Assembly (NCBI RefSeq): GCF_900182615.1
Contig: NZ_FXTE01000002.1
Location: 124,001 to 188,000, forward strand
DNA: 64,000 bases
Source of the DNA: Ruegeria faecimaris
GTDB lineage: Bacteria; Pseudomonadota; Alphaproteobacteria; Rhodobacterales; Rhodobacteraceae
Reading direction: 5' to 3'
This document shows, piece by piece, positions 28,473 through 35,311 of this stretch. Below the pieces are notes generated by a model, which saw only the letters and a program-made list of their open reading frames with translations, did no database searches and was not told the DNA's origin. The position numbers and the translations under genes are program-made. The stretch's first letter is position 1. The number at the start of each line of letters is the position of its first letter.

Positions 28473-28503
28473 TGTGATCACAGCTTTTCAGGGTGTGATC
28501 ACA
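28473..28503. promoter_or_regulatory. Tandem TGTGATCACA operators upstream of sucC
   Basis: Two perfect 10-bp palindromes, TGTGATCACA at 28473-28482 and again at 28494-28503. Their starts are 21 bp apart (two helical turns), so they face the same side of the DNA. The nearer copy is about 107 nt from the sucC ATG. The same arrangement occurs before sdhC (35281-35311). Likely a dimer-of-dimers binding site for one regulator. Confidence 0.75.
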
Positions 28504-28581
28504 AAACTTGAGCTGGTATTGAGCGTTGATTCGGCAGGAAATTCACCCAATAGAATATGACGTTTTCAAGCTAGCGCTAAC

Positions 28582-29430
28582 CTATCCGCGTCTGAGGCGG
28601 ACGATACCCTTTTTCACAGACATCACCAGTTTGCGCAGTTTGCCCAACAAGCCTTTGTCGACCAGTGGTCGGACTTTTTTCGACGCGCCGGGCGTGAGCT
28701 GTGCGTCGGCTTCGATAAGGCTGTTGATATGACGTTCGAGATCGGGCCCTACCAAACCGGCGACAGTTCTAGCGCTGTCCAGCCGCTTGTCATGACGGCT
28801 GTGAAATTTGTAGTGATGCAGCAGGCGCGGGGCGCTGTGCAGAAAACCGAACATCTCGGCCTGACGATAATCGAGGAAGTTGTACTCGGGTGGCAGAACT
28901 GCCAGTCGCAACGCGCTGGCAAACAGCTTTTCGCGGATCAGCGCCTGATCTGAGGTCAGGTTTTCCGAGATGATAGTCTCTTGTACATCTCGCAGGAAAT
29001 CCAGCACTGCGTCCGAAGTGCGAATTCCAACCAGCCCGCCATTGAGATGGGGAAATGCGTTGGGCAGCGGAGTTTTCCAAACACGTTGCGCATGGGCCGA
29101 GTTGCGCAAAGGGTCATGGACCATCGCGATATCAAACTGCTCTAGGACGGTGAAGATATCCGACATATCTGCCAGACAGCGCACATCGGCATCCAAATAG
29201 ACCGTCTTTTCGAACCGGGACCGCACAAGGCTTTCGAACTTGGGTCGGAACCAGCTTTTGTCCAGCATGTGGATTTGGTCAAACACTTCTGTTCCCGGGA
29301 TGTTTTCGAGGTCGGTGAACAGGTCGACCGGTACATCCGGCATGGCGACCTTTAACGACCGAGCCGCTGCCACCGCTGTTTCGATGTAATCCTTACCGCT
29401 TGCGGCAATGACAAATCCCTGAGACGACAT
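28582..29430 (-). CDS. Glycosyltransferase, GT-A fold (GT8-like)
   Basis: A 282-residue protein. SFVIAASG-like GFVIAASGKDYIETAVAAAR starts a nucleotide-sugar-binding fold, and VYLDADVRC holds the metal-binding D80-x-D82. FPHLNGGLVGI, YNFLDYRQ and LLHHYKFHSRHDKR match the acceptor and C-terminal parts of GT8-like retaining transferases. The start is the ATG at 29430, after a GGAAG ribosome binding site. It lies between mdh and sucC in the same direction, but an mdh terminator ends just upstream, so expression would need readthrough. Its sugar and acceptor are unknown; surface glycan is likely. Confidence 0.8.
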   Translation of the reverse strand: MSSQGFVIAASGKDYIETAVAAARSLKVAMPDVPVDLFTDLENIPGTEVFDQIHMLDKSWFRPKFESLVRSRFEKTVYLDADVRCLADMSDIFTVLEQFDIAMVHDPLRNSAHAQRVWKTPLPNAFPHLNGGLVGIRTSDAVLDFLRDVQETIISENLTSDQALIREKLFASALRLAVLPPEYNFLDYRQAEMFGFLHSAPRLLHHYKFHSRHDKRLDSARTVAGLVGPDLERHINSLIEADAQLTPGASKKVRPLVDKGLLGKLRKLVMSVKKGIVRLRRG

Positions 29431-29440
29431 GGCAATCTTC

Positions 29441-29477
29441 CAAAAAATGACCCGGCCCACCATGGGTGAGCCGGGTT
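29441..29477 (-). terminator. Rho-independent terminator after mdh
   Basis: On the minus strand ACCCGGC pairs with GCCGGGT (7 bp), with an inner TCACC/GGTGG continuation, followed by CATTTTTT. The hairpin ends only about 20 nt before the glycosyltransferase ATG, so the T-run overlaps that gene's leader. Confidence 0.82.
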
Positions 29478-29499
29478 CTGTTTAACCGTATAAGACGGA

Positions 29500-30462
29500 T
29501 CAGGCCAGAGAGCTGTCGATGCCTTTGCATGCTTCGATCAGGCCCTTCACGGCGTTGACCGAATTGTCGAAACCGGCCTGCTCTTCTTCGTTGAGCTTGA
29601 TGTTGACGATACGCTCGATACCGCCTGCGCCGATCACGGTGGGGACGCCGACATACATGCCTTCGACACCCAGCTCTCCGTCGCAATAAGCGGCGCAGGG
29701 CAGGACGCGTTTCTGGTCTTTCAGATAGGCTTCGGCCATTTCGATTGCCGATGTGGCAGGCGCATAGAAAGCCGAACCTGTTTTCAGCAGGCCAACGATT
29801 TCAGCCCCGCCGTCTCGGGTGCGCTGCACGATTGCGTCCAGTTTCTCTTGTGTGGTCCAGCCCATCTCGACCAGATCGGGAAGCGGGATGCCCGCAACGG
29901 TAGAATAACGAACCGAAGGAACCATGGTGTCGCCGTGGCCACCCAGAACAAAGGCAGTGACGTCGCGCATGGACACGTTGAATTCTTCCGACAAGAAGTG
30001 GGCAAAACGGCCCGAGTCCAGAACGCCCGCCATGCCGCAGACCTTGTTGTGCGGCATGCCCGAGAATTCACGCAGAGCCCAGACCATCGCGTCCAGCGGG
30101 TTGGTGATGCAGATGACAAAAGCATCGGGCGCGTTGGCGGCGATGCCTTCACCGACCGACTTCATGACTTTCAGGTTGATGCCCAGCAGGTCATCACGGC
30201 TCATGCCTGGCTTGCGTGGGACACCTGCGGTGACGATGCAAACGTCGGCGCCTGCGATGTCCTCGTAGGACTGGGTGCCTTTCAGCTTGGCGTCGAACCC
30301 TTCGGAAGGGCCGGATTCTGCGATATCCAGCGCCTTGCCTTCCGGAGTGCCCTCGGCGATGTCGAACAGCACGACGTCACCGAGTTCCTTCATTGCTGCG
30401 AGGTGGGCGAGCGTGCCGCCGATCTGACCTGCGCCGATCAGCGCGATCTTGGGTCTGGCCAT
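29500..30462 (-). CDS. mdh: Malate dehydrogenase (NAD+)
   Basis: Interconverts malate and oxaloacetate. 320 residues of the lactate/malate dehydrogenase family, MDH type 3 seen in alphaproteobacteria. NAD fold IALIGAGQIGGTLAHLAA starts at residue 6; catalytic His176 is in GGHGDTMVP, and CITNPLDAM and PRKPGMSRDDLL supply the substrate-binding Arg and Asp. The start at 30462 gives the family N-terminus; the frame extends further upstream without reason. It is divergent from a TauE-like exporter and followed by a strong terminator. Confidence 0.95.
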   Translation of the reverse strand: MARPKIALIGAGQIGGTLAHLAAMKELGDVVLFDIAEGTPEGKALDIAESGPSEGFDAKLKGTQSYEDIAGADVCIVTAGVPRKPGMSRDDLLGINLKVMKSVGEGIAANAPDAFVICITNPLDAMVWALREFSGMPHNKVCGMAGVLDSGRFAHFLSEEFNVSMRDVTAFVLGGHGDTMVPSVRYSTVAGIPLPDLVEMGWTTQEKLDAIVQRTRDGGAEIVGLLKTGSAFYAPATSAIEMAEAYLKDQKRVLPCAAYCDGELGVEGMYVGVPTVIGAGGIERIVNIKLNEEEQAGFDNSVNAVKGLIEACKGIDSSLA

Positions 30463-34512: not shown

Positions 34513-34530
34513 CCCCACATTCATTTGAAC

Positions 34531-34558
34531 GCAGCCTGCAATATTCGTGCTAGGCTGC
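34531..34558 (+). terminator. Hairpin between mch and the DUF1194 gene
   Basis: GCAGCCT (34531-34537) pairs with AGGCTGC (34552-34558) around a 14-nt loop. There is no T-run, and the 3' arm lies just before the DUF1194 ATG at 34563, so it could be a weak terminator or could cover that gene's ribosome binding site. Confidence 0.4.
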
Positions 34559-34562
34559 AACC

Positions 34563-35225
34563 ATGTCTCTGCTTCGCTCTTTCGTCGCCTGTTTCTTTCT
34601 GGCCCCGACCGCCGAGGCGTGTGATCTTGCTTTGGCTCTGGCCGTTGATGTCTCGGGATCGGTGGATTCGAACGAATACCGCATACAAATGGACGGCCTG
34701 GCCGCTGGATTGCGTGACCCCATCGTCTCCGAGGCGCTGGTGCGCGGGAATGCGCGGTTGATGCTGGTCCAATGGACCGGAGCCTCTCGTCAGAAGGTGA
34801 CGATCCCCTGGACACATATGGATAGCTTTGAAGCCATAGATAGCTTCGCCAGACAGGTGGCTGCGGATGCCAGAGTCTGGCGCAATTTTTCGACTGCAAT
34901 CGGTGAGGCGCTTGAGACCACAATGTCCAGTTTCAGCGAGGTAACCGAATGCAAACGGCACCTGATTGATATTTCGGGTGATGGGGTTTCCAACGAAGGG
35001 GTTGAACCGTCCGAGATTCACGATGTGTTGCGTGGGAAAGGTGTCACGGTAAATGCCATCGCCATCGAGGAAAGCGAACCCGACTTGACGGCCTATTTCT
35101 TTGAGAACGTCATTGTAGGTGAGGGAGCGTTTGTCGTTTCGGCGGCCGGGTTCGAGGATTATCCGGCCCGCATCCGAAAGAAACTGTTGCGGGAAGTGAC
35201 CCAGCAAACGGCCGGTCTGAAATAA
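34563..35225 (+). CDS. DUF1194 protein with a VWFA-like domain
   Basis: A 220-residue exported protein: signal peptide MSLLRSFVACFFLAPTAEA then ACDLALALAVDVSGSVDSNE, where D-x-S-G-S is a metal-ion-dependent adhesion site of von Willebrand A-like domains. LIDISGDGVSNEG near residue 138 supplies the second conserved Asp, as in DUF1194 of alphaproteobacteria. A periplasmic role in adhesion or protein binding is the family idea; no partner is visible. It follows mch by 50 bp and precedes the sdh promoter. Confidence 0.82.
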   Translation: MSLLRSFVACFFLAPTAEACDLALALAVDVSGSVDSNEYRIQMDGLAAGLRDPIVSEALVRGNARLMLVQWTGASRQKVTIPWTHMDSFEAIDSFARQVAADARVWRNFSTAIGEALETTMSSFSEVTECKRHLIDISGDGVSNEGVEPSEIHDVLRGKGVTVNAIAIEESEPDLTAYFFENVIVGEGAFVVSAAGFEDYPARIRKKLLREVTQQTAGLK

Positions 35226-35280
35226 GTGTGGCAGGGATTCGGAGCTGCAGGCGCTAACATCTGTTTCGTCTTATTTGATT

Positions 35281-35311
35281 TGTGATCACAAGAATATTTT
35301 GTGTGATCACT
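35281..35311. promoter_or_regulatory. Tandem TGTGATCACA operators upstream of sdhC
   Basis: TGTGATCACA (35281-35290) and TGTGATCACT (35302-35311), starts 21 bp apart. The second differs only in its last base. The distance to the sdhC ATG is about 113 nt. Spacing, sequence and distance match the pair before sucC (28473-28503), strongly suggesting a common regulator for the succinate dehydrogenase and succinyl-CoA ligase operons. Confidence 0.75.

Follow-up and report, generated by a model that had tools for sequence, protein, structure and literature searches.

Paired palindromes precede sucC and sdhC

The window analyzed here, a 64,000-nucleotide (nt) stretch of the Ruegeria faecimaris genome (contig NZ_FXTE01000002.1, positions 124,001 to 188,000), carries a block of tricarboxylic acid (TCA) cycle genes in which sucB, sucA, sucD, sucC and mdh lie on the minus strand and sdhC and sdhA on the plus strand, with sdhB beyond. 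Two pairs of 10-bp palindromes, one before sucC and one before sdhC, are the subject of this analysis. Three of the four sites read TGTGATCACA and the fourth, proximal to sdhC, reads TGTGATCACT (Table 1). In both pairs, the two sites start 21 bp apart, and the half-sites abut with zero spacer in all four sites. The sucC pair lies 107 nt from its start codon (ATG at 28365, minus strand), the sdhC pair 113 nt (ATG at 35425, plus strand). These coordinates, the spacing and both distances had been reported in a first-pass annotation made from the sequence alone and were reproduced, including the detail that the single differing site differs in its last base alone.

The same annotation had judged a chance origin unlikely, and the counts agree: shuffled sequences gave an expectation of ~8e-8 per 64 kb for two near-perfect close pairs of equal spacing, and the pair pattern at ≤3 mismatches was found in the whole 4.1-Mb genome at the sucC and sdhC places only. 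Its statement that there is no other full site held within the window, where one further site at ≤1 mismatch was detected (CGTGATCACA at 26250, within sucD); the genome contains two more exact single sites.

Other Rhodobacteraceae carry such pairs at these operons

The family sample comprised 295 Rhodobacteraceae genomes from 294 genera. The 21-bp pair was found at ≤3 mismatches in 258 of them, and every one of the 36 genomes listed from this search has a place at ≤2 mismatches. The regions fetched for 35 genomes of this listing (the sdhC region of G120 was left out) showed the pair before sucC in 32/32 readable loci and before sdhC in 33/34, the exception being G090; these fractions describe position and not frequency, because the genomes were picked for a listed pair. 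One genome, G177, has the pair and no recognized sucC beside it. The 20-bp pair at ≤2 mismatches was present in 49/295 genomes, and the 30 loci fetched from this search lay before sucC (18) or sdhC (12). The first-pass annotation had proposed a scan of related genomes as a check, with absence of the motif before sucC and sdhC in close relatives as the refutation; the pairs are in fact present there.

A threshold of ≤3 mismatches is permissive. At this setting, the control pair GTTGATCAAC, which keeps the GATC center and the base make-up of the palindrome, matched 157/295 genomes, although only two of the places listed for it had fewer than the full 3 mismatches. The reversed pattern matched 3/295 genomes in the 21-bp search, a figure that understates chance because CTAG, a tetramer scarce in many bacteria, is part of that pattern. 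In view of the GTTGATCAAC result, we therefore relied on position and on a strict search that required exact 8-base cores with a gap of 6–36, which found a pair in 150/169 genomes and the reversed pattern in 0/169; among the 75 places listed, the spacing was 21 bp in 63, 20 bp in 5 and another value in 7. Furthermore, none of 29 permuted palindromes formed a pair in any of the upstream regions in which the real palindrome did so in 41/41 and 40/41 cases, these regions having been chosen by the presence of the pair.

In the fetched relatives, the palindrome core is almost invariant and has zero spacer, and the outer flanks (TT before the distal site, AAA after the proximal site) are more conserved than the inner ones. 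Both operons carry the 20-bp spacing in G055, G069 and G133, as well as in G009 with weaker sites. The idea that spacing is a genome-wide trait fixed by the regulator was ruled out by G134 and G174, in which the spacing is 20 bp for the sucC pair but 21 bp for the sdhC pair. G042 has an extra pair 123 nt upstream of fumC, and G289 has one 152 nt upstream of lpd; fumC and lpd are two more enzymes of the same metabolic stretch as the sucC and sdhC targets.

Several further arrangements were observed. G042 also carries a 31-bp exact-core pair (L311) before an open reading frame (ORF) of no recognized role, and other third pairs, e.g., in G115, G120 and G181, all have 2–3 mismatches. Some upstream regions (L149, L150, L157, L167 and L171) have a third, weaker palindrome one more 21-bp step away, forming phased triplets.

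A GntR/FCD regulator gene carries a single site

Five exact copies of TGTGATCACA were found in the 4.1-Mb genome. Three belong to the pairs, and one, within an unrelated 528-codon ORF where it reads Tyr-Val-Ile-Thr, is probably there by chance. The fifth lies 17 nt after a TTGAC and stops 7 nt short of the ATG of a 215-residue ORF whose product matches the Pfam families GntR and FCD above their cut-offs. This gene lies outside the window, on contig C7 of the same genome, and is the only GntR regulator gene of the genome whose start codon is preceded by an exact site. A site directly before the gene is what a self-regulating regulator would be expected to look like.

Close homologs of the GntR/FCD protein are annotated from Ruegeria. 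Among 80 named regulator loci, taken as best matches, 79 have the site (≤1 mismatch) upstream of the regulator gene, in most cases at 17 nt from the ATG; a TTGAC starts exactly 17 nt before the site in 66 of these 79 loci. In the family sample, the site precedes the regulator in 31/33 loci (mostly best-scoring) and in 9/15 further ones, corresponding to 40/47 genomes with one genome shared by both locus sets.

AkgR reportedly activates several TCA-cycle genes directly, a finding credited to Imam et al. in mBio in 2015, and we take it to be the product of RSP_0981 of Rhodobacter sphaeroides. A passage of PMC4344238 (2015) describes RSP_0981 as a GntR regulator whose predicted targets are succinyl-CoA synthetase (sucCD), succinate dehydrogenase (sdh) and 2-oxoglutarate dehydrogenase (odh), and a passage of PMC6365646 counts the GTGATCAC core among AkgR binding sites and terms AkgR a transcriptional activator. 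The elements of this regulon were found here as well: a GntR/FCD gene with its cognate site, the GTGATCAC core motif, and the targets sucCD(-odh) and sdh. The place of odh in the target unit follows from gene order; sucA/odhA and sucB/odhB, on the same strand as sucC, are likely in one transcription unit with it. The GntR/FCD gene is likely the ortholog of akgR (RSP_0981), and among 120 listed homologs of its product one (95% identical) is named "AgkR" by NCBI. A single shared regulator with AkgR as candidate, as the first-pass annotation had suggested, gains support from the recurrence of the pairs, the self-site of the GntR/FCD gene, the link of GTGATCAC to AkgR and the predicted targets of RSP_0981; the dimeric or tetrameric form that the annotation gave this regulator stays putative.

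With respect to gene position, akgR lies within ~11–18 kb of the operator pair on the same contig in seven genomes (G013, G063, G149, G154, G208, G278 and G294), a proximity that the locus numbers suggest for RSP_0981 as well; in the window genome, it is on a separate contig. Two akgR-like genes in one genome were noted (G193; L095 and L101 of Rhodobacteraceae bacterium Alg231_04), the L095 copy with an upstream site and the L101 copy without. FCD proteins bind metal through Asp/His/His/His. In the AkgR-like protein (L005:1518-2165), N136, H140, H183 and D205 are invariant across 33 aligned orthologs and may form a variant metal or ligand site.

Regulator and pairs are present and absent together

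A close ortholog of the regulator, defined by E ≤1e-70, was found in 265/295 family genomes. When pairs were called as 21 bp at ≤3 mismatches or 20 bp at ≤2, a pair was present in 261/265 genomes with the ortholog vs 8/30 without (odds ratio ~180), and the strict 8-base-core search (gap 6–36) gave 146/149 vs 4/20. In 15 ortholog-bearing genomes without a 21-bp pair, a 20-bp pair stood before sucC in 9/9 readable upstreams. Among genomes with neither ortholog nor pair, two sites were found before sucC in 0/14 and before sdhC in 0/14, and one imperfect site was seen in two sucC upstreams.

Of the eight genomes with a pair and no regulator, six have the pair before sucC, G209 has a 3-mismatch match with no sucC or sdhC recognized nearby, and G033 fell outside that comparison; four of the eight are <80% complete. 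On a SucC+SdhA tree, which excludes these eight genomes and is underpowered, the losses are scattered and 4/4 independent contrasts on supported branches agree. A SucC-only tree, which includes four of them and is likewise underpowered, has 2 supported contrasts, with trait agreement of 0.8 of 2 on average.

The outside sample comprised 289 alphaproteobacterial genomes, 285 of them not of the family. A pair (≤2 mismatches) was found in 1/285, and a close ortholog in 0/285 (best E 1.4e-43). As a TCA-cycle device, the AkgR-type pair appears confined to this family in the sample. The outside pair, in G440 (L312, G440:C189), has the 21-bp spacing and precedes a GntR gene (31% identical) that is followed by an SDR-dehydrogenase-like ORF; its position before a related GntR gene means that GntR proteins beyond AkgR share the motif, which the Pseudomonas case in PMC6365646 shows as well. 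The G440 arrangement is also reminiscent of the Pseudomonas deoxyribonate cluster.

Proposed mechanism and competing explanations

Both pairs are likely AkgR operators, at which two dimers per pair are predicted to sit on one DNA face and to activate sucCD-odh and sdh together. One AkgR dimer would bind each palindrome, and a spacing of 20–21 bp would set two dimers on one helix face, two turns apart and touching each other, while the conservation of the outer flanks hints at outward contacts. The pairs, ~105–150 nt before the start codon and thus placed as for an activator, would serve activation. The single site at akgR, placed between a presumed −35 (TTGAC) and −10 element and overlapping the −10, would serve negative autoregulation, and with TTGAC as the −35 element transcription of akgR would start close to the ATG. 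A carboxylate of the 2-oxoglutarate–succinate stretch would be a natural guess for the signal sensed by an FCD-type protein.

A wider proposal is put forward tentatively. AkgR and its paired operators may constitute an inherited Rhodobacteraceae module with a layout code, in which a pair (20/21 bp) would mean joint activation of the enzymes from 2-oxoglutarate to fumarate (sucCD-odh and sdh, joined in some genomes by lpd and fumC), a single site over the −10 would mean autorepression of a leaderless akgR, and loss of the regulator would be accompanied by loss of the operators at both operons.

Several observations weigh against the assignment to AkgR and joint activation, beside the loose mismatch threshold noted above. 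The ortholog cut of 1e-70 was chosen after a gap at ~1e-60 to 1e-75 had been seen. In the 15 ortholog-bearing genomes without a 21-bp pair, the sdhC pair is absent in 6/12 readable upstreams, the other 6 having a 20-bp pair. The eight of 30 ortholog-lacking genomes that still carry a pair include G019, G114 and G256, drafts of 210–320 contigs that are >90% complete, and the missing ortholog in these three is unexplained except by the fragmentation of the drafts. The independent contrasts on supported branches number only four, all concordant, giving p = 0.125. The autoregulatory site is absent in 7/47 genomes, and the G440 pair at a related GntR gene shows that the motif alone leaves the protein unnamed. 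A look for a named AkgR model in NCBIfam gave no model above cut-off for the GntR/FCD protein, other listed homologs beside the "AgkR" entry are named McbR or plain GntR, and the orthology to Rhodobacter AkgR is indirect. In addition, no conserved promoter hexamers were found at a consistent offset between pair and start codon in the fetched relatives, and activation therefore stays a prediction.

Many GntR proteins repress, the single akgR site is placed as for a repressor, and the pairs could likewise be repressor sites from which the regulator, holding down both operons, is released on ligand. Repression is nevertheless unlikely, given that AkgR is termed an activator in the passage of PMC6365646 and that the pairs lie well upstream of both start codons, typically by ~105–150 nt.

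The bound protein could also be a different GntR/FCD paralog, the GTGATCAC motif being common to a wider protein group. A Pseudomonas GntR protein 32% identical to AkgR is proposed in a passage of PMC6365646 to use GTGATCAC, the G440 pair stands before a 31%-identical GntR gene, and up to 10 GntR matches were scored in the window genome. However, the pair and the AkgR ortholog rise and fall together, weaker GntR matches also occur in genomes without pairs, and in the window genome the exact site precedes one GntR gene only, which makes a paralog quite improbable. A CRP/FNR-type protein, with the consensus TGTGA-N6-TCACA, is scarcely credible: the half-site letters TGTGA and TCACA are identical, but the required 6-bp spacer is absent in all four sites and the near-invariant core of the relatives lacks it as well. 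A chance or composition effect, for which the control pair in 157/295 genomes at 3 mismatches might speak, is practically negligible against the position before the same two operons, the 29 permuted palindromes that gave no pair in the pair-chosen regions, and the strict-search count of 150/169 vs 0/169.

Co-control by CceR was also considered. The CceR motif is given in a passage of PMC4344238 as the inverted repeat [A/G/T]GTT N6-8 AAC[A/C/T]. A narrow CceR-like 12-mer, GTTANCGNTAAC, matched at ≥9/10 in 2/41 sucC and 5/41 sdhC upstreams and other palindromes in 0–1/41, without clear enrichment; in the window, a 9/10 match lies ~216 nt before sucC.

Genes of the TCA-cycle block

The operators and the principal genes of the block are compiled in Table 1. 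An FkbM-type methyltransferase gene and a glycosyltransferase gene lie on the opposite (minus) strand at 38104–40075, between sdhA (end 38025) and sdhB (ORF from 40147). With these two genes in between, sdhB lacks an operator pair, and the closest site upstream of it has 2 mismatches. A sugar-nucleotide transferase-like gene with a weak Pfam match lies at 28582–29463, between mdh and the sucC operator.

Table 1. Operator sites and principal TCA-cycle genes of the window.
Feature	Position	Strand	Basis
Operator palindrome TGTGATCACA, sucC-proximal	28473..28482	.	Sequence match
Operator palindrome TGTGATCACA, sucC-distal, 21 bp off proximal	28494..28503	.	Sequence match
Operator palindrome TGTGATCACA, sdhC-distal	35281..35290	.	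Sequence match
Operator palindrome TGTGATCACT, one mismatch, sdhC-proximal, 21 bp off distal	35302..35311	.	Sequence match
sucB/odhB, 2-oxoglutarate dehydrogenase E2	19476..20981	-	Pfam, ORF order
sucA/odhA, 2-oxoglutarate dehydrogenase E1	20981..23938	-	Pfam, ORF order
sucD, succinyl-CoA synthetase alpha	25755..26660	-	Pfam CoA_binding, Ligase_CoA
sucC, succinyl-CoA synthetase beta; first gene after pair	27172..28365	-	Pfam ATP-grasp_2, Ligase_CoA
sdhC, succinate dehydrogenase cytochrome subunit; first gene after pair	35425..35808	+	Pfam Sdh_cyt
sdhA, succinate dehydrogenase flavoprotein	36217..38025	+	Pfam FAD_binding_2, Succ_DH_flav_C

Relation to known systems

The pairs are real and well explained. 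For the core of the TCA cycle, they point to one specific regulator with a precisely delimited operator. The family concerned is dominant in many marine bacterial communities, and a regulon known from one model species becomes readable from raw sequence across that family. The strict pairing makes a mechanism based on two dimers and helical phasing directly testable. A limited literature search (TGTGATCACA, TGTGATCA + sdhC, GTGATCAC + GntR, AkgR, RSP_0981), with the primary AkgR paper outside it, found no description of the fixed pairing at two helical turns (20 or 21 bp), of a single site overlapping the regulator's own promoter, or of operator and regulator occurring and disappearing together.

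By sequence, the closest solved structure is that of E. coli McbR (PDB 4p9f; E 2.5e-19), which has the GntR-FCD architecture in common with the protein described here. McbR is a different regulator, and the automatic "McbR" names on Ruegeria homologs stem from this distant similarity. PS417_07240, a GntR protein of the Pseudomonas simiae deoxyribonate cluster that is 32% identical to AkgR, resembles the present regulator in having a proposed GTGATCAC site before its own gene (a passage of PMC6365646); unlike the arrangement found here, it involves a single palindrome and a different pathway. The nearest counterpart is the AkgR (RSP_0981) regulon of R. sphaeroides, which has a GntR regulator, the targets sucCD, sdh and odh, and the GTGATCAC core in common with the Ruegeria system; set beside it, the system described here displays strict 21/20-bp pairs and one single site at the regulator gene. 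Control of sucCD, sdh and odh by AkgR is already predicted, and the operator layout is unusually clear here.

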